Positions 896 through 64,000 of a stretch of DNA of 64,000 nt are shown one piece after another. The notes under the pieces are model-generated. The model saw nothing but the letters and a program-made list of their open reading frames with translations, made no database searches and had not been told where the DNA came from. Both the position numbers and the translations under genes were made by a program. Each line of letters opens with the position of its first letter. Position 1 is the first letter of the stretch. The DNA comes from Hexactinellida sp. DTS-2022 (Eukaryota > Porifera > Hexactinellida): positions 3,968,001 to 4,032,000 of the forward strand of contig JAPNXP010000006.1 in NCBI GenBank assembly GCA_028753945.1, written 5' to 3'.

Positions 896-3800
896 CTCTT
901 CAAAAGATATAGAAGTCTGTGCATAACATTCAGCCGCTTCGTTAAACATAGAACCTTTGAAATAACTCTCTGCTTGCGCTCTATTAACTCTGTCCATTTG
1001 ATATGTATTTATCTAAAACAAGTAATAAATTAATGTAATTTAAAATGTAATTTAAAATGTAATTTTCAGGAACTGGAAAGTTCATTTTAAACTGAGCCAC
1101 TAAATAGTAGCCTGCCTAGTAAAATTCACCTTTTCGAAGCCAGGTTTTTATATTGAAAAGGTGTTTGCCAATATATATATTAATAAGCCCAATAATAAAT
1201 CCAGTAGATTCTCGTTAATACTAACATCAGGGGACCGTCGAAATTTTTGTTAGTATCATCAGTAAATTCGTACTAACCGGAGTCACTTACATGCATTTGT
1301 ATAGGCTAGGGGAATTAAACCTTGTACTCATTCGCCTTATAAGTGTTGTACTAACGAGAGTCTACTGTACATTATATCACATACAATGACCCTATATTTA
1401 CCCTGCAATATCTCTTAGCAGTATCATAGTCTCCTTTCTCAAGGTAACATCTCCACACATCTCTAATCTCATTCTGAATGGAATACCGATTAAAGTTCTT
1501 TTCACTGTACAGCCATACATCACCTGTCATTGGGTCACGGCACATTCCTAAATAAATAAACCGTATGTATACAGTCAGTGTATTATAGACAGTGGATGCC
1601 GGTTATAAGCACATCGTCGGGAACTGCACTTAATGTGCTTATAACCGGCATGTTCTTATAACCATCATATATTATATAGGGTATATGGCAACCGTTTTCA
1701 AACATAGTGTGCTTATATCCGACATCTACTGTACAGCCATTTGTAAATACGCTCTTAATCCTGGTCTGATCCAATTTTCATACGTCTAAATCACAAATTA
1801 ATGTTACGGTATAGGAGAAATCCAAATTTTTCGCGCTCCTAAATTCAAATTTTCCAAAAACCATGCTACAAAAGGACTCCTGGTTAATTCCTTGTATACA
1901 GTAGATACCGGATATAAGAACACCGGTTATAAGAACATTCTACTGGAAAACGGTTGCCATATACCCTGTAAAATTTATGCCGGTTATAAGAACACTATAT
2001 GCAGTTCCCGACGAAGTTCTTATATCCGGTATCCACTGTAGTATATGTTGGAAACAATAAAGTAGTGGAATATAATCGTTAATTATGGGAGATTTCAGTA
2101 GAACCTCGTTGATACGAATACCAACGGACGGTAAAATTTGTTCGCTTTATCCGGAGTTCGTATTAACCGGAGTAATAGCCATTGAATAGCCATTGTAGGG
2201 ACCTGATTTTGTGGAACTGTTTGTTCGTCAAATTCGTACTAACGAGGTTCTACTGTAGTTAGAAGACATATAATTATTGAATAATAGGAAACCTTTAATA
2301 TTAACAGATCTGTGTGAGACATTATCTTGAAATACAATCTGTAAGTTTAGTAACGAAACAGCTTCAAATCTGTCTCTGAATGCAAGAATGCAATGGAATT
2401 CTGTCATACAAATGTATAGGGGATATGAGTCTAAGTTCTGTCGATTTATCTAGAAGAAAATATCGATTAATATCATGTTGTAAAGTAATTAAAGTAATTA
2501 AGCAATTAAGTAATTAGCATTTTTATTAGGTTTAACATGGAGTAATATAATTAGTAGCTCTCGTTAATACGAACTCGGAAAGATTAATTATCATTAAGGA
2601 ATACAAGGTTTATTTCTTCTAACCTATAAAAATGCATGTAAGTGATTCCGGTTAACACGAATTCTCGATAATACGAACAAATTTTGACGGTCCCCTAGTG
2701 TTCATATTAACGAGAGTCTACTGTAATATTAATACGTCTTATACAGTTGTGTTCGCGTAATAGCAAGTCGAAATTTGCACGAAATCTGTTGGCTAATATG
2801 CGAATTTGCTATTAGAGGAACAAAATTAATATTAAATGCTCGCTTTGGGACTGAAAATAACTTGCTAATAGAGCAATATTGCTATTAGATCAATTGTTAT
2901 TTGGCGAACACCACTATCCGATTAGTCTTACTTTATTTCCATGCAAAGAATTAGTTAGAAAAAAAAAACCGGTTTCGATTATAATATTTATAGACCAATT
3001 GCAATTGCTATTAGGCAAACACTGTATAACTTATGTGTATTACCTGTTTGTGTTGTATTAGCTCACAGTCAATAGTTACACTCTTCGCATCTCTGTTAGA
3101 GAAATCCAAATTCCCAAAGTATACTCCGGCACCTGTTAACCAAGCGAATTTCCGTGGCACATCCCTTGGAGTGGGGGCCCAAGTACAAAAGTTAGAATAT
3201 GACAATGTACCTGGGATTTCATGGAAAGCTAAAGGCCGGTTGGAAAACAAACCGGCGTACATTGGGGAATCGTTAAGAACATCTCCAATGAACTGGAATA
3301 TACGGTTAGGTGTGGTTACAATGGAAATAAAGCGACGCTTATCATTCTCGAATGGCTGTAGTAACAGACCTAATAGAATACAGTATATAGTAGGAATTAG
3401 TGATAACTTAAATTTAATTTTTACAATAAAAACGCAGGAAATTTGTCAGTTTTGACCAATCCGTGGAAAGGAGGAAATAAAGATTTTTACAAATTTTTAC
3501 AAATTAAGTTCAATAAAATTTCTCAAAATGAAATTACCGGAATTTTGAAAATACAAAATGAAATGGAATTTACCTCAGTATAAAATAGTTATTTGAGGAC
3601 TTATAGGGAAAATAGGTAATACAATAGAACTTCGTTAGTACGAACACCAGGGGACAATCAAAATTCGTTCGCCTTTTCCATAATTCGTATTAAGTTACTA
3701 TTAACCAATATCATTTGTATTGAAAAGGCTTTGAAAGGGACTGAAATAGTGTTCGTATTAACCAAAATTTCGTATTGTTCTAACGAGGTTCTACTGTAAT

Positions 3801-4551
3801 TGTTATAATATAAATTTGCTAACTTACCAGTCACTTTCTCTGTTTTCTCTACATCTACCACATGTAATTCTTTCACATATTTTTCCAAAGCACCTCCACC
3901 TGAAATCTGTTTTTTCAAAGCCTTCATTAACTCTTCATTTTGTGGCTCTATTTCAGTTTCTAAAATAGTCCCCTTATTTGTTCCTAACACAATAGGATGA
4001 GTAGTTTGGTCAGTAGGTTCACGATTTGGACACCATGCAATACTTTCTATAAACACTTGTCTAAGTTTACTCAAATGTTTTAATTTCTTACTTCCTTTTC
4101 CACCTTCAAGATAATAATTCTCTCCTGCATTTGTTGATATTATAACATGTTGCCCGGTCGGGTCTTGAAATATTTTCGCAACTTTATCATCTGGCGATGC
4201 GGTTTTTTTCGGTAATTCAACAGGTGTGTTTGTTTTCTTCCGCAAATCATATTGCCATATTTGGTGACCTTGTACATAAACAACTTTTTCATCACTAACA
4301 GTAACATGACTTATCTGTTCTTCAAGTTTAGTGACATTGAATGTTTTCATTTTTTTAAAAATAGGTTGTTCGGCATTACTAATATCACTACCTTTTCTAT
4401 CACGACCTAAATTCCCTACATTTTGACCTGAAAGGTCTTGTGAACGGCGAAATGGATCGCTATACCCTGGCCCGCCAAACCCTGTTCTTCTGGTGCCTTG
4501 ATAAACCTGTGATTGTTGGAATTGATCGAATAAACCTAATTCCTGAGTCAT
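896..4551 (-). CDS. VPS18: VPS18, HOPS/CORVET core subunit (5' part, 5 exons)
   Basis: Vps18/Pep3 is a core subunit of the HOPS and CORVET tethering complexes that bring late endosomes and lysosomes together. Five exons were joined: 3828-4551, 3044-3369, 2293-2437, 1402-1547 and 896-1012. They total 1458 nt (486 codons) with matching phases. Family landmarks are GQHVIIST, ENYYLEGG and VLGTNKGTI in exon 1, then RRFISIVTTPNRIFQFIG, LTQ-like MTEFHCIL, TGDVWLYSEKN and RDVWRCYLEKGDYDTAKRYC. Together these are the N-terminal beta-propeller and the start of the alpha-solenoid (AQAESYFKGSMFNEAAECYA). The ATG at 4549-4551 gives MTQELGLF; an in-frame ATG at 4602 is possible but its 17 extra residues look unconserved. 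The C-terminal solenoid and RING lie off the left edge. The family assignment is secure; splice sites are inferred. Confidence 0.93.
1202..1367. repeat. Family B MITE in VPS18 intron 4
   Basis: Starts CAGTAGATTCTCGTTAATAC and ends GAGAGTCTACTG, imperfect terminal inverted repeats. The interior carries repeated TATTAACCGGAGT-type motifs and an AGGGGACCGTC core. Confidence 0.75.
1590..2038. repeat. Composite D-R1-D repeat in VPS18 intron 3
   Basis: Two family-D elements (1590-1731 and 1899-2038, TIRs CAGTGGATGCCGGTTATAAG and CAGTAGATACCGGATATAAG) flank a copy of the dispersed repeat R1 (about 1736-1895, containing CTGGTCTGATCCAATTTTC). The same D plus R1 association recurs at 40870-41225, so this may be one compound element rather than three independent insertions. 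Confidence 0.65.
2096..2255. repeat. Family A variant MITE
   Basis: Begins CAGTAGAACCTCGTTGATAC and ends AACGAGGTTCTACTG. Its interior (CATTGAATAGCCAT, GGGACCTGATTTTGTGG) is shared with the copy at 50362-50542, which defines a subfamily distinct from the usual A interior. Confidence 0.75.
2552..3024. repeat. Family B then family C elements back to back
   Basis: A degenerate family-B element occupies about 2552-2723. A family-C element (2744-3024; start CAGTTGTGTTCGCGTAATAG) follows 20 bp later. The C copy is interrupted by a family-K fragment near 2950-2990 (AAACCGGTTTCGATTA). It ends 20 bp from the 5' splice site of VPS18 exon 2. Confidence 0.6.
3622..3796. repeat. Family A MITE in VPS18 intron 1
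   Basis: Start CAATAGAACTTCGTTAGTAC, end AACGAGGTTCTACTG. It ends 32 bp from the donor of VPS18 exon 1. Confidence 0.75.
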
Positions 4552-4613
4552 CTTTGTATCACTATGTAATTTGAGTGTGCTAATATTTATACAAGGGGAC
4601 ATGGGATATTATA

Positions 4614-4968
4614 TAGTGGTGTACGCTTAATAGCAAGTGCTATAATTATAGCAAAATATACAGTAGAACCTCGTTAGTATAAACAAGGTTAATATGAACA
4701 CTATTTCAGTCCCATTCAAAGCCTTTTCAATACAAATTATATTGGTTAATACGAATTCCGGATAAGGCGAACGCATTTTCAATTTTCACGGTCCCCTGGT
4801 GTTCTTACTAACTAGGTTCTACTGTATATATGTTGCTCTATTAACAAGTTATTTTCAGTCCCCAAGCGAGCATTTAATGTTACTAATTCTGTTCCTCTAA
4901 TAGCAAGCTCGCCTATTAGCAAGCAAATTTCATGCAAAATGCGACTTGCTATTATGCAAACACCATTG
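4614..4968. repeat. Family C MITE with nested family A MITE
   Basis: The outer element has C-type ends (AGTGGTGTACGCTTAATAGC and its inverse) and the internal CAGTCCCCAAGCGAGCATTT block. It is split at 4661-4824 by a complete family-A element (CAGTAGAACCTCGTTAGTAT to GGTTCTACTG) flanked by TA on both sides. A therefore moved after C was already present. Confidence 0.85.
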
Positions 4969-45934: not shown

Positions 45935-48900
45935 CTACTTAACACAGTTTATAGGAGGAAGTGCTATTGCCTCAAGTTTAAATTCCTTTTGTAGACAAGA
46001 CACTATAACTCTAACTGGAGTGAATAACTTCAGTTCTTCATTGAAAGGTTCCCCATCAGTTTTCCAAGAAATCTTAAGTTTTTGCGGACATGAATTCTTA
46101 TTGTATTCAAAACTAACTGCGTATCCTTCCATTACAATACGTTCACAATACACGCGAACTTCAATGCCTATTCTTGTCAGCATTACATCAAAAGAACTAT
46201 CAAGCACTTTCATAATTCTACCATTCTCCTCAATAGGAACAGTGCTATGTAGAAAATAAGCAAAAAACAACATATTGCATTGCAAACTCGCTTTTTTAGC
46301 CATAAGTTTACTCTCATTACATTCTTCAGGAATGACGTCATATTCTACATCTTCTATTTCCAAAGCAGGTCCCTGGTTAATAGCAGCCGCCAATTGTCTA
46401 TGTACTATTAAATCTGGATACCTCCTTATAGGGGAAGTGTAGTGAGTGTAAAGCTTAAAATTCAGTGCGTAATGTAATGAATCAAGGCCTTCTTTAAGTC
46501 GTGTGTATTTTGCTAATGCCATTGGTATTGCACATAGATTTGATAGGATACAAATCTCGTCTGTATCATGTTTTTCTGAGAAAGTATTTAGTGCTTTCAT
46601 AATACCCCCAGCACTTGTAATATCGATTGGAATATTGTAGTCTTTACATATTTTAAAAAGCTTGGTGTCAAGTTTATATTGTGAGGGTGTGGGGTGTATT
46701 CTGATCATTGCATGCTCCGGATAATGAGTAGCTAACTTCTGAGCTATTAGCTTGTTAGCTAACAGCATGAACTCTTCTATTAGGAAGTGGCTTGTGTGAC
46801 GGATATAAGGACCAAAACCTATTAGGATATATATAAATACTAAATAAATGAGATACATTCAGTATACATTGGAGAAATTTCATATTTGATTATGAACAAT
46901 TATTAAAGGAAATTTCAATATGACAATTACCCAAAGATTTTGGAAAATTACAGTTAGGTTTGCTTAATATGAACACTTTTTATTATGAACAAGCCCTATG
47001 GTCCCAATTTACAACTTACATAGAGCTTGTATCAAGTTGAGTTCGCTTTAAATGAAATCTCGATTTACTATGAAATGGTCCCTTGAATGTTCATAATAAA
47101 ATAACCTGACTTTCTACCTATATTACCTTTTGTTCTATATTACCCATATATGCAGTAGAACCTCGTTAATACGTACATACACGGTTAATATGAATTCCGG
47201 ACATGGTGAACACATTTTGACGGTCGCCTGGTGTTCGTACTAACGAAGTTCTACTGTAACTCACCCATTGGATCGCCTGTTTCTGGGTTTAAAGAAAAGG
47301 ACAGTTTTACTTTCTGTAATATTAAAGACCCATTTTGTATCCGTAACTCTCTCAATTTCATTGCCAACAAATTCAAATTGAGTAAAGATTCAACAATTTT
47401 ATCAACCGGTTGTCCACGTATATTTTTCTGTAAAACTTCTTTCCAATCTTCATTTACATTCTGTATTACATCACCAGCCAATTCATAATGCATTTTATAG
47501 CAAGATCGTATAACAGTACGTCCGTACCATATATCAAATGGTTCACAACTATTGCTATTCATTTTAAACACAACTGAAAGAGCCAATCTATCTACATTAG
47601 GATTCAAACTGCATAGCTTGTCAGCTAACTGTTCAGGTAGCATTCGTATAACCCTGTGTGTTAGGTATATACTGGTGCCTCGCTTCCTCGATTCTAAGTC
47701 TAAATAGAAGTTTGTTAATTAATAGGAAATAGGGCTTATTTATACAGTAATAAACATTATAAAGTAAACTCTCGTTATAACGAAGTGCTTGGGTCCTGTA
47801 AATTCCTTCGTTATATCCGAATATTCGTTATAAGCGGATGGTAATAATTCATTTAGTGCTCTGGGGGGAAATGTCAATTTCGTTATAACTGACTAAGATA
47901 TAATGGGAGTTTACTGTATATTAATAGGATTTAGAAATGGGGTCATTCAAACGGTACGAAAAGCTTCCAAAGGAGGAACCAATGTGTGACATAAAATCTT
48001 TTTTGTATTACAAACAACGGCTGCAATACAGTACAACTCCGCATTGGAAATAGAATGTAACTACAGCAGAACCTCGTTAATAAGTACACCAAGGGATCGT
48101 AAAATTAGTTCTCCTTAACAGTATGATTTGTATTTAAAAGGTGTTCGTATCAACCGGAATTTGTATTAACCATGTTCGACGTTCGTACTAACGAGGTTCT
48201 ACTGTAATTCGTTTAAACATTTTATGAAGTCACAAGGTTACATACCCAAAGCAGAATTCTCCTTAACAAAGTAGCTAACATCCGCAATATGCACTCCAAC
48301 TTCAAACGTATCTGAATCTATCTTCTTACAATGCAGGGCATCATCAATATCCCTAGCAGTAGATGGGTCTATTGTGAATATACATTCGTTTGTAAGGTCA
48401 CGTCTCGATTTATATTCCTCTGCTGGAATATTCCATTCGTTATTAGGAAGACAGTTAAGGGAATCTTGTGTGAAATCATCACCATGTGTAATGTCATTTT
48501 CTATTAGGAGAGCTGTTATTTGGATATCGAGATTACTCCAATCACCAAGACAGTATATTAAGTCGCCATTTGCATAAGGGGAATCAACCTAGGGGTATAT
48601 ACATTGTAATAAATCAACAGGGAATTAAGGTAAATATAGGTATATAGCATAGCATTAAAACACACGAATAGCCTGGGCCTGGGGTCCAAGGTATAAATAG
48701 AAAAAAACACTTTCGTTTTCACTTAAATTGGCAACAAAGATAGTATTTAATGGGAGAACTGAGCTTTGTATAACATATCTCTCTAACTATTAAGTAGGGC
48801 TGAAACTAATATACCGAATATTCGAATATTCGTTCGTTTAGAAAAAGGTTCGTTCGTTACATTTCGAATATTAATTTCAGCCCTACTATTAAGTACCTTC

Positions 48901-50135
48901 CAATCCGTAATCTTGACAGCAAATATAGAGGAATCATACTTGCGTTTATCCTCTACATAATCAGCTGGGCACTGTGCTAAAGGCACCAATATTCGCGGCA
49001 GTCTAGACTCCCTAGGAGAGAATAACACTATACCTAAGTTAGCATCAAATCTCTTTAGAAACCCTACAGTGTTTCTACTGTGCTTCTTCTGACTGATGGC
49101 CACTACTCTACCCATTCTCTGTTGGGATAGTTCGTTGAAGTAGGGAGTAGAATCTGTGTCTGGGTTATGGGGAATGTCTAGAAATAGCAACCTAATAACC
49201 AACCACGAATAACAATTCATATACAGTGGAATTGCTTTATTAGCAACTCGCATTTTGCATGAAATTGGGTTGCTGCAATGTTGCTAATAGGGGAGTTGCT
49301 TATAAAGCAATTCCACTGTATACTCTATTAGTAAAGAGGCAGTTGTAACAGGTTTTTTCTTTCCCTTAGTTTTGTTATATGTATTTCAGAAGACATTTTA
49401 TCTAATGCTTGTAAAGTCAATAACATGATTTGAAAACTTCCATTAAATGCAAGTACTTTACAGTCAGGTCAGCTTATTGTGAACAATTTTTCGTTTGCTT
49501 AATATGAAAAACTTTTATTATGAACAGGCCCTATGGTCCAAATTTAACAACTTACATAGGGTTTGTATTAAGTTGAATAAGCTTATTATGAAGTCGCTCT
49601 ATTATTAACACAATTATTGGTCCCTTGAATGTTCATAATAAAAGAACCTGACTGGATAAATATTAATTAGAAAATCCTACACATTCCTATTATCACTCTG
49701 CATTGAGAGAATATTTACTTTACTATAGTAGCTATTAGCTAACATAAGTTACAGTATTAACAAGGTAAAGAAATGTATAATTTCAATAGATAAATTTACT
49801 TAACTAATCAGTACTAAGTTTAGATTAGGTATTGCAGGTGTAAAGTAAGGTAGAGAATACAAATTTAAATATTCATAGAATATTTGAGAGCAATAAATTA
49901 GATAAATATGCGATAAACTTTGACAGTATTTCAAATTCATAATTAGTAAAATGTTTTGTGTGATAAAATAATGTATTTTGAGATTTTTGTTGCGTTTACT
50001 GGATTGGTGATGAACATGATAAACAATCAGAGGTTTGTAATTATTAATTTAATTGTGTTATACTATTATAGAATGTTTAAATTCAGAGTGATTGTTCTTT
50101 CGAATTTCGCATTTATAAATTTATAATATTAATAT

Positions 50136-50166
<31 letters not shown>

Positions 50167-52476
50167 CACAAAATAGGTAAACAAATTAATGAAACTTACA
50201 CCGATCTGTCGTAAAGCGACAGATCGGAAAAACTTTTGCTGAAAAACTTTCAGAAAAACTTTTGCTCCTTAACCGATATTTCAGAAAAACTTTAGCTCCT
50301 TAACCGATATTTCGTCTTACCCATGTGCGTATTAACGAGGTTTACTGTATTTAACCTAATACAGTAGAACCTCGTTAATACGACACCAACGGACGGTGAA
50401 ATTTGTTCGCTTTATCCGGAGTTCGTATTAACCGGAGTAATTAATACCCATTGAATAGCCATCGTAGGGACCTGATTTTGTGGAACTGTTTGTCCGTCTT
50501 ATCCGGAAATTCGTATTAACCGTGTTCGTACTAACGAGGTTCTTAATACGAATTCCAATAAGGTGAACGCAATTTTACAAGCCCCTGGTGTTCGTATTAA
50601 CCAATTAATTACTTATTAACAAAAAAGTATTTCTATTAACTTCTAATAGTAAATTCTGTTACTGCGAAAATTTAACACAATTAAGCGTACTCGACTAATA
50701 ACACTAAACTTACAATAAGAATCTTCTAGAACTTCTACCACTACAATATCAGAGGGCAATGCTCTATTCCTATTAGTGCCCAGAATAAGTATATCTCTTT
50801 CATCCACTGGACTGTACACAAAACCTTGTTCATAATTCCTCTGATTAATATGGAACGGTCCCTTGAAGTATTTACCATTCTTTATACCTTGTTCAGCTTC
50901 CGCTGGTGTAATATATTCATTCATTGGAGGGTCTAACTTCTTGCCTAGGATACTAAGGGTGTCTTTGTTTAATGGCTTTGAAATAATATCAAGTTTGGAT
51001 AATGTCTCTGCAACTGTTTCACCTATAAATGATAATATTATTAATCATAGTATGTTTGGTCCCTTGAATGTTTTCATAATAAAAAGAACCTGACTGTAAA
51101 TAACAAACAAGCAAATACAGTCGACTCCGCTTAATAGAGTCACCTCGGGACCAGGTTATTTTGACCCGATTAAGCGAAGAAATCTTTAACCGAAAATATT
51201 TTAAGCCAAATGTAATTCGGTCCTATAAATCCTGTGAAATTTTGACCCCATTAAGCGGAGAAATCTATTAAGCGGAGTCGACTGTATTTGCTTGTTTGTT
51301 ATTTACAGTCAAATTCATTTATTATGAACATTCAAGGGACCAAAAATTGTGTTCATACTAGAGATACTTCATAATAAGCGAACTCAACTTAATACAAACC
51401 CTATGTAAGTTGTTAAATTGGGACCATAGGGCTTGTTCGCAATAAAGTTTTAAATTAAACAGACGAAAAAATTTCGCAATAAGCAGACCTAACTGTCTTA
51501 TCATTTCGGGTGGGTTTATTGTAAACAATCTTCCGTATGCTTAATATGAAAAAAAAAATTATTATGAAGAAATGGTCCTAACGAGAGTTCTATTGTACTG
51601 GTTCCTACCTTCGCTTGTCTCTATTTTAACATCTGTTGTTTTCAATGTAGATTGACTTTGCCCTACATTAGCCTGTATCTTTTCAACAGTAGGAATCTGA
51701 TCTTCATTAACATTTGTAATCTCAGGATCACTATTCTTATCTCTTTGCCTAAACTTTCTACCCTGTCTAGACCCACGTTTTCTTGAATCCCTTGATTTAG
51801 GTGGACAATCTGACCTATTTTTAGCCTGTGGATGGTTAACTGGTTCCATGTATTGTGATACGAATCTGTGTGTATTAGGGTACCTCACACCTGGGCCGTA
51901 AGGTACAGGTCCGTTTGAATAGTTAGGTCGTGGTGTGTAATCTATGTAGGGTTGTTGTATGGCATTTATTGGTGGTAGGATTTCCCCTGCTGGAGCTTCT
52001 CTTTGTGCTAATTGTGTAATCTGTAAAACCCACGCAAGGCTTGTATGCGCTAATACCTTAGTTATTGCTTGTAGTAGCTCAATTAGCGATGAGTCCTTAT
52101 TCCATTCATAAAATACTGAATATTCTATTTTGAATGTGTCTGGATTATAGAATGGTTGGAAATATTGGTCAGGAATAGATAAATCAGTCATTGTAACATC
52201 AGGTGCTTGTAATGGATAATCTCTATCCAACCATAAGTGTATTAGGAATGAAGGAATTCCTTCGCTCTGTAGAGAAGTAAAGCCAGGGCCAGACACCTGT
52301 GCTAGCTTGTATTCTACACTGTTTTTCTCAACAGTGGATAGGTGTAGTTTGAAATTAGAGAAAGTTTGTAGTAGGCATACGCAATGTTGTATTAGAGTAT
52401 CTGGTTGGGAATATGAGAGGTCTGATAATTGCTTTTTGGCTTTCTCTAATTCAGTTTCTTGATTTGAGACGTTCAT
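45935..52476 (-). CDS. DIS3L2: DIS3L2 3'-5' exoribonuclease with N-terminal UEV-like domain
   Basis: DIS3L2 degrades oligouridylated RNAs from the 3' end in the cytoplasm without the exosome. Six exons (51609-52476, 50714-51022, 48897-49177, 48246-48588, 47265-47699, 45935-46818) join in frame to 3120 nt, 1039 residues plus stop; the human protein is about 885. Exons 2-3 encode cold-shock domains (YITPAEAEQGIKNGKYFKG, NRALPSDIVVVEVLEDSY, VVAISQKKHSRNTVGFLKRF). Exons 4-6 encode the RNB domain with the catalytic acidic cluster DPSTARDIDDAL (about residues 560-571), GVHIADVSYFV, MLPEQLADKLCSLNP, EEFMLLANKLIAQKL and YTHYTSPIRRYPDLIVHR. A C-terminal S1-type region follows. There is no PIN domain and no N-terminal CR3 motif, so it is DIS3L2 rather than DIS3 or DIS3L. 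Exon 1 is unusual and described separately. Confidence 0.94.
46952..47256. repeat. Family E and family A elements in DIS3L2 intron 5
   Basis: E at about 46952-47112 and A at 47153-47256. The A element (GCAGTAGAACCTCGTTAATA to CGAAGTTCTACTG) ends 9 bp from the exon 5 donor at 47265. Confidence 0.75.
47762..48204. repeat. Family G and family A elements in DIS3L2 intron 4
   Basis: G at about 47762-47916 (TATAACGAAGTGCTTGGGTC, TATAATGGGAGTTTACTG) and A at 48064-48204 (CAGCAGAACCTCGTTAATAA, ACGAGGTTCTACTG). Between them, about 47950-48010, is a fragment of the AGCTTCCAAAGGAGG dispersed repeat. Confidence 0.7.
48795..48885. mobile_element. hAT-like MITE at the DIS3L2 exon 3 splice donor
   Basis: A 91-bp element with ends TAGGGCTGAAACTAATA and TTAATTTCAGCCCTA and palindromic CGAATATTCG inside. 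It is flanked by CTATTAAG at 48787-48794 and again at 48886-48893, a perfect 8-bp duplication typical of hAT. The inner duplication overlaps the intron start, so the donor reads AAG|GTACTTAATAG and the element begins 11 bp inside the intron. A related fragment lies near 53195-53252. Confidence 0.85.
49178..50713. other. DIS3L2 intron 2, repeats
   Basis: It contains a short C-variant near-palindrome (49224-49318, CAGTGGAATTGCTTTATTAG), a family-E element (49461-49654), a TTG-microsatellite repeat (about 50090-50196) and an A variant (50362-50542) like that at 2096-2255. No exon was recognised. Confidence 0.65.
50090..50196. repeat. Dispersed repeat with internal TTG microsatellite
   Basis: AATTTCGCATTTATAAATTT, then nine or so TTG units, then TTTACACAAAATAGGTAAAC. 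The same order occurs at about 13415-13510 and about 655-790, so the microsatellite belongs to a dispersed element. Confidence 0.75.
51040..51500. repeat. Composite palindrome E-F-E in DIS3L2 intron 1
   Basis: A family-F element (51118-51284) is flanked on both sides by the same 21-bp spacer in opposite orientation (TAAATAACAAACAAGCAAAT and its complement) and then by family-E ends in opposite orientation (half copy at 51040-51097, near-complete at about 51305-51500). The whole is a palindrome of about 460 bp. Confidence 0.8.
51609..52476 (-). other. DIS3L2 exon 1: UEV/RWD-like domain plus basic linker
   Basis: The ATG at 52474-52476 opens 289 residues. Residues about 25-150 resemble UEV domains (catalytically dead E2 ubiquitin-conjugase folds, as in TSG101/VPS23): IPSFLIHLWLDRDYPLQAP matches the strand-turn-PxxPP region, and VFYEWNKDSSLIELLQAITK matches the Hx-W...LxxLIQ helix region. 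No E2 cysteine was evident. Residues about 200-290 are a polar, basic linker (SRKRGSRQGRKFRQRD), similar in composition to the N terminus of other DIS3L2 proteins. The exon ends in phase 1 at GAAG|GTAGG; exon 2 starts ATAG|GTGAAACAG in the matching phase with no stop before the cold-shock region. The fold assignment is by eye and needs a profile search. Confidence 0.68.
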
Positions 52477-52802
52477 TGACACTCTTATGATTCTAATAAG
52501 CTTTGTGTTATTGATTATTAAATAAGTATTAAAAAGTTTACATGCATCAAATAATAAAAATTCGTGTTTACGCATAGAACAAAAAAATCCAATTCTTCAA
52601 AATAAGTATAATATAAGTTACCATATACATACGTATAAAGATTATTATAAAATATTGTCCATTTTATGAAAAACATGCAAAAAACATGCAAAAAACATAC
52701 AGATCTAATTGTACTAATTCCAAATAGTGATTGCAATAGTTGTAATAGTTAGTTAGCAGAAAACTACTTGAGAAGCATGCCATCTAAGTAGACAGAATGT
52801 AG

Positions 52803-55800
52803 TTAGAATTTGAATGTTAGTAAGTAACGAATTCTGTTCTGGCTCTCTTTGTAGATCAGGTATTCGCTCTGAGGGAAAAAAGAATCCGAGTAATCGCTTT
52901 GATCGATTGCCTTTCCCTGGGGTACAGTCACATCTCGACCATCAAGTTTTATCTTTACATCGTGTTTCATATCTACGAAGTCAATATGCAAAAACATTAT
53001 TAGATTATAAATTATACTCGTTTACTCTCTTGGACAACAACATAATTTTTGTGAAGAATGGAGAAATCGTAAATATATAATATATTCCTGCCTAAACTAG
53101 CTGAATAGCTAACTTATGTCTAATACACACTTTGCAACAAAACACTATTTCCACTGTATTTTGAGCTTAAAATTTGATCAAATGTTTAATAATCAAAACG
53201 AACGAATATTCAAATATTCGTTCGTTACATTTCGAATGCTCATTTCAGCCCTAGAGGAAGGAGTCCATCATAGCTCACCTGGCTCAGTTCTTCCTCTAGC
53301 TACTACACTGTCATACCCATCTGGTGCTTTCCAGAGACTACAATCCATTTGTGTAATAGTATGCTCTTTCCCGAGAGCAACTTCGTTTAAGAACATTATC
53401 CCAATATTCTTACTTGAAGTGTCAACTAAAATAAATAATGGTTTAATAGAAATATTTTGACAGACATAACGTTGCATTTTTGGAAAAAATCTTAAATTTT
53501 AAGTTTTAGAAATTGTATTAAGTAATTACAGGTAAAATGAAGTTTTATATATTCCCCAGACCGGAATTGAAATTGAAGAAATTCAATGTCAGATATTTTT
53601 TCAGTTGGAGAAGAATACATTTCACTTAGTTAGTTACATTTAGAGTTTAAGAAAAAGTACATTTCAGTTACAGTTTAAAGTTTAGTTTAGAAGTTTAGAA
53701 AAAAGCTAAAATCAATTTCAGTTGGATTTCAGTTACAGTTTAATTTCAGTTTCAGTTCGCAGCACTACTTACACAACGAAGTGTAATTTATGCCCCCCTT
53801 AAGAATTTACATATCCCAGATTGCCCCCCTTGCTTGCAAATCCTGTATGAAACACAGCAATTCATACCAAAACAAGTAGATAAAATGTGTTCAGAAGCAA
53901 AGTATATTCCCTTTCCAACCCAGCCGCCTGAATGTGGCATAATCCTGAGTCCGTCTTTGACAATAGCAGCCACAACAGCAAGATTAGTACCGTGCCATAA
54001 CAATTTCCTATTCTCTAATTTGTCGTGTAGTTTGCTACGCGCAAAAGCAGAGTGTCTGTAAACTTTCCAAATATTCTGAATAACAGGACCTCGACCGGAC
54101 CAACTTGTACCCTTTGTATTGTTTGTATAAGTCTCTATGATCTATAAGAAATTGGTAACACATTGTATAGTAAGAATTAATAATACCAAATCTGGAAATT
54201 CATTGTAAATTAATTGAGTAAATATGCAATATGTACATAATAGGTGCACGAAATTATATACTACGTAGTAGGGAAATTCTGTATTCAGTAATTGTATTTC
54301 GTGTTTGATTCCAATATACGTACGTAATTATATCAGGGAAGTACTCTAATTATATTATAATTGTGCTTAATCAGGGGTTCATCAATTCAAGGCGCGCAAA
54401 TTTGAAGGAATTTTTCTAGGCTTGCGAAAATTGAGAGATACTCCCATAGACGTAATACAAATTGAATAATTGTGAGCAAGTAGCTTGTGAGCACGTTCAA
54501 ATAAAATTTCAAAAGAAATTTTGGCTGGATGAAAGCCTGGTGCCAATATAACTTAATATTTATTTTTGTATTACAAAATTGTCCAAGAAGAAGTGTGACA
54601 TAGGGAAAGGGTGTATAATCTTCATGGAATTTTCGATACGAACGTTTGAACTTCACTTAATTAACAGGAATATTTGTGCAAAGACCGATTAACTCACTTT
54701 GTACATATTTGATGATGGCTCTAACAACTCTAAATCAGTTTTCAAAAGTCCGTAATTAACATCTGCCGGATGTGGAACCTCGTCTAAACTCTCATAAGCC
54801 TTGTCTTTATCTTTTTGCATAGCTAGGGCCAGTTCAATATCTCCAAGTACCTGTATACTAGGAATTGTGCATTACAGTAGATGCCGGATATAAGAACATT
54901 ATATGCAGTTCCCGACGATGTTCTTAAAACCGGCATCCACTGTATATAGCAAACTACAGTAGAACCTCGTTAGCACCTACACGGTTAGTACGAAATTCCG
55001 GTTAATACGAACACTATTCCATTCCCCTTCAAGACATTTTCAATACAAATGATAATAGTTAATACGAATTCCGGATAAGGCGAACGCATTTTGACGGTCC
55101 CCTGGTGTTCGTACTAACGAAGTTATACTGTACATACAGTATAACCTCGTCAATAGGAACACCAGGGAACCGTCAAAATGCGTTCGCCTTATCCAGAATT
55201 GGTATTAACTATTATCATTTGTATTGAAAATGTCTTGAAGGGGAATGAAATAGCGTTCGTATTAGCCGAGTTTCGTATTAACCGTGTAGGTGCTAACGAG
55301 GTTCTACGTGTACTGTAGTTTGCTATATACAGTGGATGTCGGTTATAAGAACATCGTCGGGAACTGCATATAATGTTCTTATATCCAGCATGTTTAGATC
55401 AGACAAAGACCAGGTATATATAAATGGCAGTATAATACACTGATTCAACTGACCATTAGCATATCTTTCTTCTTTTGGAGTGCTTCGGCATTGTTTATAC
55501 TGGGAGGGCGCTGACGACCAAAATCGTGAGGAATAATTGTAAAAAAGTTGGAGCTAAACTCCATGAGTTTACCGGTTTTATTCGCATTCAGTTCGGCTTC
55601 AATTTTCTCCAAAATATCAAAACCTTTAGCAATCTGTCCCTTACTCAGTTTTCCTAACGGCATCTTCTTTACATCTAAATTAGTGAGGATAAAAAGTAAT
55701 TTAAAAAAAGGAAATATGGTAATTCCATGAAATAAAATTTATTTCGGTTTACGTATTTGTCGGCTAGCCGACATAAAAGGAATTCATCCAAAATTGAACG

Positions 55801-58800
55801 AATTAGAGGAAAAACTGTAATTCCGTCCTATGAAATTTTGACCCCATTAAGCGGAGAAATATATTAACTGGTGGCTCTATTAAGCGGAGTCGACTGTAAT
55901 TCCAATTTCTTTTCAGTTAATAAATCTTTCGATATACAAGTCTCTACCTATGTCAAAGCTCTTCATCGCGTTGTTGAACATGTCGTTGTCAAAGATGAGT
56001 TCTACCAGCTCTTGTGTTGTTATATCCAAGCAACAAGCTTTCACCTTTTTCGGTCTGGTATCTGATTGTGTGTCCATAACAATTATCTTAAGAAAAGGTA
56101 AATACTATTTAGTATAGAGTGGTGTTAGCCTAAGAGCAATTGCTCTAATAGCAAGTAATTTCAGTCCCCAATACAAGCGAGCATTTATTGTAACGCCATA
56201 AACACAAGCTACAATGCTAAATCGATATTAAATTATTATTTATTTGGCAGGGTTGTGGTGGCAATTCCAAGGGGAATTCGGTGGAAATTACAGTGGTGTT
56301 CGCGTATTAGCAAGTCGCATTTTGCACTAAATTTGCTTGCTAATAGGCGAACTTGCCATTAAACTAGCAGAATTAACATTAAATGTTCGCTTTGGGACTG
56401 AATATAACTTGCTAATGGAGCAATTGCTACGAGGCGAACACAATTGTATACGGAAATATTTCCGGAATTATATGATAACCCCGTTATAACGAAGTCTGAT
56501 ATAACGAAATAACCGCTCATAACGTTATGGATATTATCCCCCGGCACTAAATGCATTAATTATTATCCGCTTATAACGAATAATTGGATATAACAAAGGA
56601 ATTTACAGGTCCCAAGCACTTCTGTATAACGAGAGTTCACTGTACTTACGGTTATGTCTGACCAAATGATAATTATTGTAACATTTTACAGCAACCCACC
56701 TCCTCATCAGAATCTACTAAATCTAGCAGTGTATACTTCCCAGCTACAGCTGTAAAGTTATCTCGTTCGTCCCAATTATTCCGAGTCTTATCTTTGAATT
56801 TCTTAGCAAATTCCTTCTCTGCTGCGTCCTGTTTGACGAATGGACCTTTCATTGCATTCTGTCCGTCTTCTCCCTAAAACAGAACAGTAGCTATGGTATG
56901 CAATCGATTTCCTTTTAATAGCACTGTTTGTCAGATAGGAATTTTGAAAATGGGATGAAATAAATTACAGTTGAACTCGGTTATAACGTACCTGGGTTAG
57001 TACTGTTATATAACAGTTTACCTACCTCTATTACTCTAACCATAATTAATCAGGGGTACTCTCTATCAATGACGGTTTACTTACCATCTTTGTTATGGCT
57101 CCTCACTTTATACTTCCTATAGTCGAAATCGGGGTTTTTGATAACGTTTTTTTTGTCTCATCGTTTTTTTGTCTTCAATCCTTGTATAGATTGTTTTAGT
57201 TTTCGTACAAATTCCATTATAAAAAATCTAAAATTACACCTGTGCCGACAGCATGTTCCTTGGAGGCACTATCATTCCACCAACCACCAAAATATAGTGC
57301 CTCCAAAAGAACATGCTGTGGGCACAGGTGTAATTTTAGATTTTTTATAATGGAATTGTACGATAAATAAAACAATCTATACAAGGATTGAAGACAAAAA
57401 AAAACGATGAGACAAAAAAAACAGGTATCAAAATCTCGATATCGACTATAGGAAGTATAAAGTGAGGAGCCATAACAAAGACGGTAAGTAAACCGTCATG
57501 GATAGAAAGTACCCCTGATTAATCATGGTTATCGTAATAGAGGTAAATAATCCGTTATAATAACAGTACTTACTCAGGTACGTTATAACCGAGGTCTACT
57601 GTATAACGGGAATTAAGTGTACGCATAATCACTTACAACTCGACCCCATCTGCTCCACACGTAGAAGTGAAGCCAACTCTGCAGAAGTTGTATGACGTAA
57701 TACTTGTTGTTATTGACTCCTAAATTCGTCTGATTCAACATACAATCCCAGTCTTCGACAACCACATAGGAAGTCGGGTCTGGAACTTTTTTGTCAACTT
57801 TTCGTTGTGAAAGAGATTTTTTCTTCTTCGTAGCTAAATTAATTATAAACAAAATAAAAATTGAAAATATAATACGTATATTGTGTATCACGTATAGTAG
57901 AACCTCGTTAATACGATCACTATCAGTCCCCTTCAAAGCCTTTCATTACAATTGATATTGGTTAATACGAATTCCTGATAAGGCGAACGAATTTTAACGG
58001 GCCCTGGTGTTCGTACGAACGAGGTTCTACTGTATAATACGTTATTCGGAAGGGAGGATTAACGTACTACACAAATTAGATATTTTCTATTAAAGTAAGA
58101 GGAAGTCCCTTCATAATAGATTATTTACAGTGGTGTTCCCCTATTATAAATAGCAATTCTCTAATAGCAATAAATCTTGCCCTATTAGCAAGTTATATTA
58201 GTCCCCAAGGGAGCATTTAATGTTAATTCTATTCCTCTATTCAAAATTCGACTTGCTATTAGAGGAACAGAATTAATATTAAATGCTCGCTTGGGGACTG
58301 AAAATACTTGCTATTAGAGCAGTTACTACTACGATAATTTCACTGTATATATACCATCTTGCGCCTGCAATAATTCCTTTGCTTTCTGGAATTCAGTCTG
58401 TTCAGGTTCTTTCTTTACTTTCTTAGGCTTAGGAGCTGTGTCTCCCTCTTCCTCTTCCAGAGCCTCTTTGAGACGCTCTATTAACTCAGCCTTCTGACCT
58501 GTGGTCTCCAAGCCTAATTGTAGTGACAGTTGATAAAAATCATGATTTAAGAAAAACAAAAAAACGAATTTTTTACCCTAATTTTATTCAGAATAACCTA
58601 ATTTGGACTCTTTTTGCATAATTTTTGACCTGGTTAACCGAAATTTGACCCAATTAACCGAAATTTGACCCAATTAACCGAAAATATTTGTGTCAGCTTA
58701 TAGTAGCATGATTTTGTTCCTGGAAAATGACCCATTAAGCGAAGTTGATTGTAATTAATAATAATAAAATCCAAGATTTTGTGATTAGCTAGAGTTGGAA

Positions 58801-58953
58801 ACGGTTAATCTTACCTCTCTCCTCAAGTGCTTGCTTTATCTTTGGGACAGTTAGTTTAGAAAGATCGGTTTGTTCCTCTTCCATTGCAGTGGTTGCTCCT
58901 TTTGTTGTCTTTGTTGCGACACTTTTAGTGGCGGCTTTTCTCCGTGGTGGCAT
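52803..58953 (-). CDS. PARP3: PARP3-like ADP-ribosyltransferase, copy 1 (10 exons), altered NAD site
   Basis: PARP3 is a DNA-break-activated mono-ADP-ribosyltransferase of the nucleus. Exons 58815-58953, 58355-58513, 57637-57833, 56700-56873, 55948-56086, 55454-55674, 54698-54850, 53868-54141, 53279-53425 and 52803-52972 total 1773 nt (590 residues plus stop), all in phase. Domains: SAP (about 31-65, LTVPKIKQALEERGLETTGQ), WGR (about 117-225, NNNKYYVIQLLQ, SRWGRV, KTRNNWDERDNF), helical regulatory domain (about 235-345, MPLGKLSKGQIAKGFDILEK), and ART catalytic domain. The H-Y-E triad is present (LLWHGTN, GIYFAS, FLNEVALG). However GGR is GGW, and the conserved SKSAGY-type loop reads ILSTCF, so the tyrosine that stacks on nicotinamide is Phe. 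It may be impaired or specialised. The C terminus (SEYLIYKESQNRIRYLL) matches PARP3 best. Confidence 0.92.
54875..55394. repeat. Composite palindrome D-A-A-D in PARP copy 1 intron 6
   Basis: Two family-A elements in opposite order (54957-55130 and 55137-55315) are flanked by TATATAGCAAACTA and its complement, and then by family-D elements (54875-54942 and 55330 to about 55394). The matching arrangement is present in PARP copy 2 at 62322-62848, so it predates the duplication. Confidence 0.85.
55795..55893. repeat. Family F fragment specific to PARP copy 1
   Basis: Carries CCATTAAGCGGAGAAAT and ends AGCGGAGTCGACTG next to exon 5. The equivalent intron of copy 2 has instead a family-G element at 63159-63331, so at least one of these insertions (or a loss) happened after the duplication. 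Confidence 0.7.
56117..56641. repeat. Family C and G elements in PARP copy 1 intron 4
   Basis: A partial C (about 56117-56200), a fuller C (56291-56447, CAGTGGTGTTCGCGTATTAG to GCGAACACAATTG) and a G (about 56473-56641) occupy this intron. Confidence 0.7.
56968..57601. mobile_element. 634-bp foldback element with family H ends
   Basis: A near-perfect long inverted repeat filling most of PARP copy 1 intron 3. Ends are CAGTTGAACTCGGTTATAAC and ACGTTATAACCGAGGTCTACTG. The arms match over about 290 bp each, including TTATGGCTCCTCACTTTATA and its complement. The centre carries CTTGGAGGCACTA, a loop of about 25 nt, TAGTGCCTCCAAAAG, then GTGTAATTTTAGATTTTT. The arm-centre unit also occurs alone at 15205-15320 and 34580-34675. 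No ORF of note. Confidence 0.88.
58128..58345. repeat. Family C MITE in PARP copy 1 intron 2
   Basis: CAGTGGTGTTCCCCTATTAT to TAATTTCACTG; ends 10 bp from the exon 2 donor at 58355. Confidence 0.75.
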
Positions 58954-59885
58954 GGTTAGTAAAATAAATAATAACTTTCTAATCGAAAATAATATAGTAT
59001 AACTCGGTTATATCGTCCCCTTGGGAATAGAAAATAAGTACATATTATCCGAGTGTAACTAATAAGTTACTAACCGAGTTGAAATTACATAGTACAGTAG
59101 AACCTCGTTAGTACGAACACCAGGGGATCATCAAAATGTGTTCGCCTTATCCGGAATTCGTATCAATATTATCATTTGTATTGAAAAGACTGAAATAGTG
59201 TTCGTACTAACGAGGTTCTACTGTACATATGTACTGCTTTATAAACTTGGTTAAAACTTAAATAAAGTAGGAGTTTACTTATCCAGCGATCATCGGCGTT
59301 TGTATTAAAAAACCTGGCTACTTTCTACCGATTGATTTTTTATATTCATAAAAAACACCATCGGTAGAAACTAGCCAGGTTTTTTAATACAAACGCCGAT
59401 GATCGGTGCCACTGCTACCGATGATCATTGTATAAAGTAAATTCATAAAGTATTATGTGCTAAGCCGAATTATACTACTTTTATACAGTTTAGAACTTGA
59501 TATACTACGTGTCTTAGTTATACAGTTATATCTCCTAGCGACAATAAATATAACTTGGAATGTGGTCGTTACTTATAACGTAATCAAAATTAATTTTGTG
59601 GCAATCATTATGAAACCAACGTAGCATAAATAATGTAACAGCATTTCATGTACTAACAGCGTTATCAAGTATTGTAGCTACAATGTAATGAGTAAACCGA
59701 ACATGATTGTGACAAAAATATTGAAGTCAACAGAATAACGATATTGACTTGTGGATTATGTATAATCCACAAGTCGAATAAATCTCTTGTTGATATGAAT
59801 ACGATGTAGGGCATTCAAGAATCTAACAAACTTAACGATAAGATTATAGTATTTTAGTTATTACCTACTCACTTAAACCAAATAG
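58954..59885. other. 5' flank of PARP copy 1 up to the duplication junction
   Basis: It holds an H-like element (about 58995-59085), a family-A element (59095-59223) and the hairpin (59290-59412). The promoter must be here; no clear core motif was seen. The sequence from 59886 on is the start of the second repeat unit. Confidence 0.6.
59290..59412. repeat. Hairpin element with 50-bp arms
   Basis: The arm TCATCGGCGTTTGTATTAAA, then CCTGGCTACTTTCTACCGAT, is repeated in inverse after a loop of about 20 nt. One arm (GATCATCGGCGTTTGTATTA, CCTGGCTAGTTTCTACCGAT) also occurs inside the K element at 42213-42317, so this is a small family. Confidence 0.85.
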
Positions 59886-60200
59886 TACCTTAGTTATTGC
59901 TTGTAGTAGCTGAATTAGCGATGAGTCCTTATTCCATTCATAAAATACTGAATATTATATTTTGAACGTGTCTGGATTATAGAATGGTTGGAAATATTGA
60001 TCAGGAATAGATAAATCAGTCATTGTAACATCAGGTGCTTGTAATGGATAATCTCTATCCAACCATAAGTGTATTAGGAATGAAGGAATTCCTTCACTCT
60101 GTAGAGAAGTAAAGCCAGGGCCAGACACCTGTGCTAGCTTGTATTCTACACTGTTTTTATCTCAACAGTTGATAGGTATAAATTTAGCTGAAAATCTAGA
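59886..60200 (-). pseudogene. Truncated duplicate of DIS3L2 exon 1 (UEV domain)
   Basis: 59886 to about 60167 is closely similar to 52054-52343 of DIS3L2 exon 1. The coding strand loses the end of the exon (the duplication breakpoint is inside the exon) and also its start: copy 2 jumps from about 60170 to sequence matching about 52555, which removes the ATG. It has no splice donor and no start, so it is non-functional debris marking the tandem duplication junction. Confidence 0.88.
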
Positions 60201-60420
60201 AAATTCGTGTTTAGGCAGGAACAAAAAAAAACAATTCTTCAAAACAAGTATAATATAAGTAACCAAGTACATTATAAAGATTATTATAAAATATTGTCCA
60301 TTTTATGAAAAACATGCAAAAAAGATACAGTAATTCCTAATATAGTGATTGCAATAATTGTAATAGTTAGTTAGCAGAAAACTACTTGAGAAGCATGCAA
60401 TCTAAGTAGACAGAATGTAG

Positions 60421-63400
60421 TTATAATTGGAATGTTAGTAGGTAACGAATTCTGTTCTGGCTCTCTTTGTAGATCAGGTATTCGCTCTGACCGAAATTAG
60501 AATTCGAGTAATCGCTTTGATTGATTGCCTTTCCCTGGGGTACAGTCACATCTCGACCATCAAGTTTTATCTTTACATCTTTTTTCAAATCTACAAAAGT
60601 TAATACAGTATAACGTCTAGTATGACACTGTTAAACACGAAATTCCAGTTAATTAGCACTATTTCAGCCTTTACAAGCCTTTCCAATATAAATGCTATTG
60701 ATTAATACGAATTTCGGATAAGGCGAACGCATTTTGAAGTCCCTGTGTTCGTACTAACGAGGTTCTACTGTACTGTAATATATATGTGATTTACTGTAAT
60801 TATAAAGAAGAAAATATCCATCATAACTCACCTGGTTCAGTTCTTCCTCTAGCTACTACACTGTCATAACTACCAGGTGCTTTCTTGAGACTACTGTCGT
60901 CTTTTGTAATAGTATGCTCTTTCCCGAGAGCAACTTCGTTTAAGAACATTATCCCAATATTCTTACTTGAAGGACGAACTAAAATAAACAAAATTCCAAA
61001 TAATTATTAGGCAAATATAGCGCATTTTTGGGAAAAGTAAGTAATTTCAGTTAGAATGAAGTTTTATATATTACCCAGACAGATAAATAGTTGATTTATT
61101 TCCTTAAAACATGGAAAAATTTAAGTTATGTTCATCAAATCAACGAGTTATATTTCTCGAAAAAATCAAATAAATCATTAATTTTCAATCCGTAGCAAAC
61201 AATTCATACCATAGCCAGCAGATTTCGCTTGTTCAGAAGCAAAGTATATTCCCCTTCCAACTCTCCCGCCTGAATGTGGCATTATTCTGAGTCCGTCTTT
61301 GAGAATAGCTGCCACAACAGCAACATTAGTACCGTGCCATAACAATTTCCTATTCTCTAATTTGTCGTGTAGTTTGTAACGCGAAAAAGCAAGATGTCTG
61401 TTAACTTTCCAAATATTCTGAATAACAGGAGCACCTCTACCGAAGATCCCAGTTGAATACTTTGTATTGTTTGTATAGGTCTCTAGAATCTATAAGAAGT
61501 TGGTAACACATGGTAAAGTAAGAATTAATAATTATTACCAAATCGAACAGCGGAAATTCATTGTAAGTTAATTGAGTAATAGCTATATAAGTGTAAATAT
61601 ATAGTAGGGAATTCTGTATTCAGTAGTTGTATTTCGTGTTTGATTCCAATATACTTAATTATATTAGGTTCCAATCAGGATATCATCAAGACGTGTAAAT
61701 TTGAAGGGAATTTTTCTAGGCGCGAAAATCGAGAGATGCTCTCAAGGCGTAAACAAATTGAGGAATTTGCGGAGATAAGCAAGATCAAACTAAATCTAGG
61801 TGAACTGAAATTTTTGGCTTGATGAAAGCCTGGTTCCAATAGAACTTATGGGATTTTATTACTTACTTATCCAATAGAACTTAATAGTAAAATTTTATTA
61901 CTTACTTATCCAATAGAACTTATTACTTACTTATCCAAATAACTTAATAGTAAAATTTTATTACTTACTTATCCATTAGAACTTACTAGTAAAATTTTAT
62001 TACTTACTTATCCAATACTTACTTATCCAATAGAACTTATTACTTACTTATCCAACTTATTACTCAAATTTTCATGGAATATGCGTTACGTACGTTTGAA
62101 CTGCCCTTAATTAACAGGAATATTTGTGCAAAGACCGATTAACTCACTTTGTACACATCTGATGATGGCTCTAACAATTCTAAGTCAGTCTTTAAAAGTC
62201 CGTAATTAACATCAAATGGATGTGGAACCTCTTCTAGGCTTTCGTGACCCTTGTCTTTATCTTTTTGCATAGCTAGGGCCAGTTCAATATCTCCAAGTAC
62301 CTGTATAGGAATTGTGTATTACAGTAGATGCCGGATATAAGAACATGCTAAGCAATATTATATGCAGTTCCCGACGATGTTCTTATAACCGGCATCCACT
62401 GTATATAGAAAAATACAGTAGAACCTCGTTAGTACAAGCACTGTTAATACGAAATTCTGGTTATTACGAACACTATTATAGTCCCCTTCAAAGCCTTTCA
62501 ATACAAATGATATTAGTGAATACGAATTCCGGATAAGGCGAACATTTTTTGACGGTCCCCTGGTGTTCGTACTAACGAAGTTCTACTGTACATACAGTAT
62601 AACTTCATTAATAGGAACACCAGGGGATCGCCAAAACGTGTTCGCCTTATCCGGAATTCGTATTAACCGGTGTCGTTTGTATTGAAAAGGCTTTGAAGGG
62701 GACTAAAATAGTGTTCGTAATAACCAGAATTTCGTATTAACAGTGCTTGTACTAACGAGGTTCTACTGTAGTTTGCTATATACAGTGGATGCCGGTTATA
62801 AGAACATCGTCGGGAACTGCATATAATGTTCTTATATCCAGCATGTTTAGATCAGACCAGGTATATATAAATGGCAGTATAATACACTGATTCCAACTGA
62901 CCATTAGCATATCTTTCTTCTGTTGGAGAGCTTCGGCATTGTTTATAGAGGGAGGGCGCTGACGACCAAAATCGTGGGGAATAATTGTAAAAAAATTGGA
63001 GCTAAACTCCATGAGTTTACCGGTTTTATTCGCATTCAGTTCGGCTTCAATTTTCTCCAAAATATCAAAACCTTTAGCAATCTGTCCCTTACTCAGTTTT
63101 CCTAACGGCATTTTCTTTACATCTAAATTAGTGAGTAAAATAAGTAAGGACTTACTTATAGTGAACTCCCGTTATAACGAAGTGCTTGGGACCTGTAAAT
63201 TCCTTCGTTATATCCAGATATTCATTATAAGCGGATAATAATAAATGAATTTAGTGCTCTGGGGGAAATCTCCATTTTATTATAAGCGGTTATTTTGTTA
63301 TATCCGACTTCATTATAACGGGAGTCGTCTGTAATTCCAATTTCTTTTCAGTTATTAAGTCTCTCGGTATACAAGTCTCTACCTATGTCAAAGCTCTTCA

Positions 63401-64000
63401 TCGCGTTGTTGAACATGTCGTTGTCAAAGATTAGTTTTACCAGCTCTTGTGTTGTTTTATCCAAGCAACAAGCTTTCACCTTTTTCGGTTTGGCATCTGT
63501 TTGTGTGTCCATAGGCACGATTATCTTAAGAAAAGATGAATATTTAGTATTCAGTGGTATTCGGCTAAATACCAAGTAATTTCAGTCCCAAGCGAGCATT
63601 TATTGTTAACTATGTCCCTCTAATAGTAAGTTTGCCTATTCTAAAGCAAATTTAGTGCAAAATGTGACTTGCTATTATGCGAACACCATTATAATTTCCA
63701 CAGAATTCGATGGAAATTACCAGAACTGCATATAATGTTCTTATAACCGACATAAATTATATAGGGGTGGGTATACGGCAAACATTTTCCAGTAGAATGT
63801 TCTTATATCCGGCATCTACTGTAGAGCAATTGCTATTAGGCGAACACCACTGTATATGGAGATTTTCTCCGGAATTCTATGATAATTCTATGGGAATTAT
63901 ATGGCAATTCTCACAAAAATCCTGTGGTAATACAGACCGATTGGGAACTCCCATAATATCGCTATATCATTTATAACAACCTACCTCCTCCTCATCAGAA
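60421..64000 (-). CDS. PARP3: PARP3-like ADP-ribosyltransferase, copy 2 (3' seven exons, partial)
   Basis: Exons 63985-64000 (partial), 63383-63524, 62902-63122, 62148-62300, 61210-61489, 60832-60978 and 60421-60590 correspond one to one with exons 4-10 of copy 1, with the same phases. They cover the end of the WGR exon, the regulatory domain (MPLGKLSKGQIAKG, nearly identical) and the whole ART domain. The active site is canonical: LLWHGTNVAVVAAIL, HSGGRVGRGIYFASE, the loop QAKSAGY, and FLNEVALGKEHTI with the catalytic Glu. The C terminus is NFGQSEYLIYKESQNRIRYLL then FQL and TAA. The 5' exons (SAP, most of WGR) lie off the right edge. All visible exons are open, so it is probably a working gene and the more conservative of the pair. 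Confidence 0.93.
60607..60770. repeat. Family A MITE specific to PARP copy 2
   Basis: CAGTATAACGTCTAGTATGA to CGAGGTTCTACTG in the last intron. The equivalent intron of copy 1 lacks it and instead holds a hAT-like fragment near 53195-53252. Confidence 0.75.
61855..62066. repeat. Short tandem repeat, TTACTTACTTATCCAATAGA type
   Basis: About six irregular copies of a unit of 25-45 bp built from TTATTACTTACTTATCCAAT and AGAACTTAATAGTAAAATTT. Absent from the matching intron of PARP copy 1, so it expanded after duplication. Confidence 0.85.
62322..62848. repeat. Composite palindrome D-A-A-D in PARP copy 2 intron
   Basis: D (62322-62401), A (62416-62588), A (62595-62768), D (62783 to about 62848), with a TATATAG spacer pair. 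It is orthologous in position to 54875-55394. Confidence 0.85.
63552..63852. repeat. Family C MITE with nested family D
   Basis: C-type ends (CAGTGGTATTCGGCTAAATA and GGCGAACACCACTG) enclose a D-like segment at about 63723-63822 (GAACTGCATATAATGTTCTT, CCGGCATCTACTG). Confidence 0.7.

Follow-up and report, generated by a model that had tools for sequence, protein, structure and literature searches.

A UEV-type domain probably fused to the exoribonuclease DIS3L2 in a glass sponge genome

The window analyzed here is a 64,000-nucleotide stretch of the genome of Hexactinellida sp. DTS-2022 (contig JAPNXP010000006.1). On its minus strand we predict a gene of six exons, with a spliced length of 3,120 nt, encoding a protein of 1,039 residues with a single stop at the end (Table 1). 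All five introns of the gene are of the GT-AG type and their phases agree; exons 3–6 were set by homology combined with splice signals. Exon 1 begins with the ATG at 52476 and contains 289 codons and one additional base, ending at the donor GAAG/GTAGGA, while exon 2 starts at 51022, immediately after its acceptor (TTATAG/GTGAAAC). The original prediction was that a 289-residue exon is joined in phase to DIS3L2, with donor GAAG/GTAGG and acceptor ATAG/GTGAAAC. The in-phase join was confirmed, since the two exons flank a GT-AG intron of phase 1 (51023–51608) and the phases agree, and both splice signals were found where they had been placed. The accompanying claim that no stop lies between the exons is correct for the spliced message; in the unspliced message, a stop codon is reached at 51562–51564 after 15 codons, and this codon sits inside a repeat.

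Table 1. Predicted exons of the UEV-DIS3L2 gene, its first intron, and associated elements within the window
Feature	Coordinates	Strand	Description	Basis
Exon 1	51609..52476	-	UEV-like domain (~residues 20-150), then Pro-rich and basic linker (~165-289)	ORF, translation, Pfam, profile
Intron 1	51023..51608	-	586 nt, GTAGGA...TTATAG, phase 1, packed with nested high-copy repeats	
Nested inverted-repeat elements, MITE-like by eye	51036..51568	.	Nearly all of intron 1	Local blastn, genome search
Exon 2	50714..51022	-	DIS3L2 start (CSD1); 32 coding-like codons before sole in-frame ATG	Rrp44_CSD1 E=3.2e-7, coding score
Exon 3	48897..49177	-	DIS3L2 cold-shock region (CSD2)	Homology, OB_Dis3
Exon 4	48246..48588	-	RNB domain start, DPSTARDIDDAL motif intact	
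Exon 5	47265..47699	-	Middle of RNB domain	
Exon 6	45935..46818	-	Last part of RNB, Dis3l2 C-terminal domain, terminal stop	
UEV exon pseudo-copy, shortened	59883..60180	-	Alignable ~codons 34-142; flanked by two PARP-like genes in tandem	

Exons 2–6 encode a complete DIS3L2. When the PDB was searched by sequence, the best matches were the DIS3L2 chains 8E29 (E = 7e-150) and 4PMW (E = 2.9e-149), which we take to be human and mouse DIS3L2, respectively; DIS3L2 scored 504 bits, versus 298 bits for RRP44 and 255 bits for DIS3L1. Four Pfam families exceeded their cut-offs in the 1,039-aa model: RNB (308.1 bits), OB_Dis3 (75 bits), Dis3l2_C_term (48.9 bits) and Rrp44_CSD1 (27 bits). Two others were under theirs, namely Rrp44_S1 (18.8 bits, cut-off 23) and CSD2 (15.1 bits, cut-off 26.2). 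As in 8E29 and 4PMW, cold-shock, RNB and C-terminal domains are present, arranged in the DIS3L2 order, and the PIN family was not found among the seven Pfam families retrieved from the 1,039-aa model at E<=1. The exonuclease motif DPSTARDIDDAL was judged intact by eye, and the protein is predicted to act as an exonuclease on uridylated RNA. RNB matches were obtained at two places in the genome, the present locus and a single-exon ORF of 958 aa on contig 2, which by eye was taken for DIS3. The predicted sponge protein differs from these DIS3L2 chains at its N-terminus: the match to 8E29 starts at residue 41 of the latter, whereas the sponge protein has about 310 residues before this point, including the UEV-type domain. 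Human DIS3L2 begins with a basic tail, and a basic stretch of exon 1 (residues 219–247) may stand in for it. DIS3L2 is described as having lost an N-terminal extension that its relatives possess, and as acting independently of the exosome (PMC4598762).

Next, we sought to determine the identity of the domain encoded by exon 1. In a Pfam search with residues 1–168, UEV ranked first (E = 0.0075, 16.6 bits against a cut-off of 27), with exon residues 29–141 aligned to profile positions 2–114 of 121, so that 113/121 positions were spanned; the second match was UQ_con, likewise under its cut-off. With the whole of exon 1, the UEV score was 14.5 bits (E = 0.033), again under the cut-off of 27. Exon 1 was not listed by a genome-wide search with the UEV profile, and UEV was absent from the seven Pfam families found at E<=1 in the full 1,039-aa model. 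Exon 1 alone retrieved just three chance matches from the PDB sequences (E of 0.16 or worse). When a profile was made of two sequences, exon 1 and its paralogue on contig 2, the TSG101 UEV ranked first in the PDB, with a best E of 0.001: the first 7 of 18 distinct PDB sequences were TSG101 (E = 0.001–0.026), and the next match, at 0.23, was unrelated. Exon 1 is alignable with the TSG101 UEV over nearly the whole domain. From these sequence comparisons, we conclude that the first ~165 residues of exon 1 constitute a divergent UEV/UBC-type domain. The UEV/RWD-like fold proposed originally is thereby supported as UEV/UBC-type by the paralogue and the two-sequence profile, with the exon alone scoring under the Pfam UEV cut-off. 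The only cysteines of exon 1 are at positions 32, 34 and 224, of which Cys32 and Cys34 are near the domain start. Since the domain has no E2-type catalytic cysteine, it should bind rather than conjugate.

Structure prediction was attempted for the same exon. With the 289-aa exon as one sequence, AlphaFold reached a mean pLDDT of 40.6 and the model was not used; a four-row alignment gave a poor model with a mean pLDDT of 50.4. In a Foldseek search with the latter, the best 50 of 625 matches were all E2/UEV entries, where in some complexes the E2/UEV chain was judged by length; none of the matches of this low-confidence model had E<=0.001, TM values were ~0.3, and the rmsd was 12–17 A. The lack of a structural match to UEV/RWD, named originally as a refuting outcome, did not arise among the best 50 of 625 matches, but the model that retrieved them is of low confidence.

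When the genome was searched with exon 1, the exon itself was recovered along with a shortened copy located ~7.4 kb upstream; contig 2 yielded a relative, and contig 6 matched weakly. The contig 2 relative (E = 1.1e-21 and 29% identity in this search; 30% identical across the domain, with a start resembling that of exon 1) combines a UEV domain with Pro/Gln-rich sequence; unlike the gene described here, it is a stand-alone, single-exon gene for 461 aa with no nuclease attached. Its domain alone scored 36.6 bits with Pfam UEV, over the cut-off of 27, while the full-length paralogue had no Pfam UEV match at E<=10, which we ascribe to the HMMER bias filter acting on a Pro/Gln-rich protein. Downstream of this gene lies a kinase-like gene, SCYL3-like by eye, for which Pfam support is weak (18.6 bits, cut-off 23.1). 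On contig 6, at about 3540–4900 of the minus strand, a UEV and Pro/Gln-rich gene of the contig 2 type appears by eye to be broken by frameshifts and stops. The genome contains a separate TSG101-like gene on contig 12 (named by eye; UEV, 68.1 bits) and, on contig 4, a separate ORF of 360 aa with a Mod_r score of 55.7 bits and, by eye, a UEV-like front, as in VPS37A. VPS37A is likewise a larger protein that starts with a divergent UEV-like domain (PMC11748760). An origin of exon 1 from VPS37A was considered and rejected, as the genome encodes this Mod_r protein, UEV-like front included, at a separate place.

The shortened copy of the UEV exon differs from it at 15 of 326 aligned bases. The differences, which are uninformative as to selection, fall on codon positions 1, 2 and 3 in the numbers 5/4/6; seven are silent and eight are not. 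The copy accompanies a tandem duplication of a PARP gene, with units at 52557–59249 and 60200–64000, the second running past the window end. The duplicated gene has a PARP catalytic domain (65.7 bits, 53791–54141) and a SAP domain (28.2 bits, 58332–58577). The larger aligned pieces of the duplication are 76–90% identical, versus 96.6% between the pseudo-copy and the live exon. The higher identity of the pseudo-copy would be accounted for by gene conversion or by its insertion at a later time.

Several properties of the assembly as a whole are in line with glass sponges. A genome profile search, run without a responding control, gave no match to Wnt; homeodomain matches numbered 16, and several long single-exon ORFs were present. 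The glass sponges Aphrocallistes vastus and Oopsacas minuta are both reported to be without Wnt, and single-exon genes or transcripts are listed as 12,409/19,578 in the former and 9,872/16,340 in the latter (PMC10282587; PMC10280926). Of four contig ends viewed, three carry, by eye and in the stretches shown, satellite DNA in tandem units of about 200 bp, and the fourth reads N there.

We estimate at about 0.78 the probability that the UEV exon and DIS3L2 form one gene encoding a fused protein. The composition of intron 1 bears on this reading. Local blastn repeat matches extend from 51036 to about 51505 and over 51516–51568, and a genome-wide search with the intron 1 stretch gave 4,202 first-look candidates, 40 of which were scored, with 76 matches. 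Short nested inverted repeats of very high copy number also occupy other introns and spacers (e.g., 49460–49662). The non-repeat remainder of intron 1 is roughly 60–80 nt. The introns of the TSG101-like gene are 48 and 53 nt long, and one of them has the identical GTAGGA donor. Intron 1 probably measured well below 100 nt in the ancestral gene and expanded afterwards as repeats inserted into it. Because nearly all of the intron consists of repeats, scant non-repeat DNA remains that could accommodate a promoter along with an independent 3' end.

Coding signal was compared on both sides of this intron. The 32 codons of exon 2 that precede its ATG had a coding score of 0.159 bits/codon, versus 0.080 after the ATG, while the 15 read-through codons after the exon 1 donor scored -0.08. 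The background consisted of 96-base stretches from both strands of window positions 1–45,900. Only 379 of 91,608 such stretches (0.4%), or 379 of the 10,345 that were stop-free, were as open and coding-like as the 32 codons; since this background may contain genes, the comparison is conservative. It supersedes a less strict first test with a small non-coding sample, in which an equally high score was reached by 0/1,872 random windows free of stops and by 3.8% of 2,229 stop-free cases among letter shuffles. The alignment to human DIS3L2 begins ten residues ahead of the exon 2 ATG.

If no fusion exists, the UEV exon may be a gene of its own that ends at 51562, with DIS3L2 as a second gene starting from the ATG near 50922 under its own promoter. 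The contig 2 paralogue resembles such a stand-alone single-exon UEV gene, a start codon is present near the onset of DIS3L2 conservation, and the hexamer AATAAA occurs twice beyond the unspliced stop, 1.4 occurrences being expected in intron 1. However, that stop falls within a repeat, and no coding-like signal is seen over the 15 codons leading to it from the donor. Non-repeat DNA that could supply a promoter and a 3' end is scant, and the codons before the ATG are coding-like, with ten of them aligning with human DIS3L2. The pre-ATG coding signal and the repeat location of the stop also speak against the two transcript outcomes named originally as refuting the fusion, a UEV exon ending in its own 3' UTR and DIS3L2 mRNAs starting at that ATG. 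The phases also match, as they would in one of three cases by chance. We consider two genes unlikely. The little non-repeat room in intron 1 also weighs against the notion that DIS3L2 has another short first coding exon, which escaped detection, with an optional or unrelated UEV exon. Short first exons are generally invisible to homology searches, but upstream of the UEV exon the PARP-like gene, with its stop codon at 52803–52805, is just ~330 nt away, and of the alternatives we hold this one to be the least probable.

A further alternative is an operon, in which a single pre-mRNA would carry UEV followed by DIS3L2 and a spliced leader would be trans-spliced at the 51022 acceptor. The coding-like codons ahead of the exon 2 ATG argue against trans-splicing here, as does the usable cis donor at 51608. 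A spliced leader is known in the glass sponge A. vastus, where it is reported on 4% of long reads (PMC10282587), yet leaders are on few reads even in that species; an operon seems quite improbable. A UEV-DIS3L2 join was also sought elsewhere: 49 pattern matches were obtained in viral contigs and 61 in genome contigs, with 0 confirmed in each case, and neither the viral nor the prokaryotic collection was expected to show it. The combination was not found in print by a literature search that had most subscription papers outside its reach, an absence that is weak evidence.

For the fused protein that we favor, the alignment with TSG101 informs on possible ligands. The residues aligned with TSG101 Tyr63 and Tyr68, which we take to be PTAP pocket residues, are Gln70 and Pro75, and exon 1 has no Tyr between Tyr56 and Tyr87. 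As these tyrosines are absent, a PTAP ligand is unlikely, and the suggestion that the domain binds PTAP-type ligands was not supported. Of two residues presumably on the ubiquitin surface of TSG101, Trp75 is kept as Trp82 and the place of Phe88 is taken by Thr95; the remaining TSG101-type ubiquitin contacts are unrecognisable in the exon 1 domain. The sponge domain is like the UEV of TSG101 (ESCRT-I) in belonging to an E2-like family without the catalytic Cys and in having an equivalent of Trp75, and unlike it in the loss of the PTAP-pocket tyrosines and in its protein context. An inhibitor study places TSG101 Trp75 within the binding site of a compound that disturbs ubiquitin binding (PMC5680296). 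That the exon 1 domain reads ubiquitin is a minority hypothesis.

Herein, we propose how the two parts may work together. The UEV-type domain, a catalytically dead E2 fold, would be an N-terminal extra on the DIS3L2 exoribonuclease, attached via the Pro-rich and basic linker, and both parts would be translated together. The domain would be the docking arm through which the exonuclease reaches a partner, for which a ubiquitin-like protein, or an ESCRT-type or other ligand, is a candidate, while the basic linker would help to hold RNA. Judged from sequence features, a docking arm is the likeliest role, with ubiquitin or a ubiquitin-like protein as one candidate partner. A more specific scheme, in which the UEV recognizes ubiquitin or a ubiquitin-like tag carried by a ribonucleoprotein or membrane and DIS3L2 is thereby brought to the uridylated RNA at that site, is conceivable but doubtful. 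If true, a ubiquitin-reading UEV-DIS3L2 would be a direct covalent link of protein tagging to RNA decay in a single animal protein. A UEV-type arm on DIS3L2 would point to a path of recruitment for which other animals would have to rely on contact between separate proteins. Fused domains often hint at partners that interact elsewhere, and the fusion raises the question of whether TSG101-type proteins or ubiquitin contact DIS3L2 in other animals.
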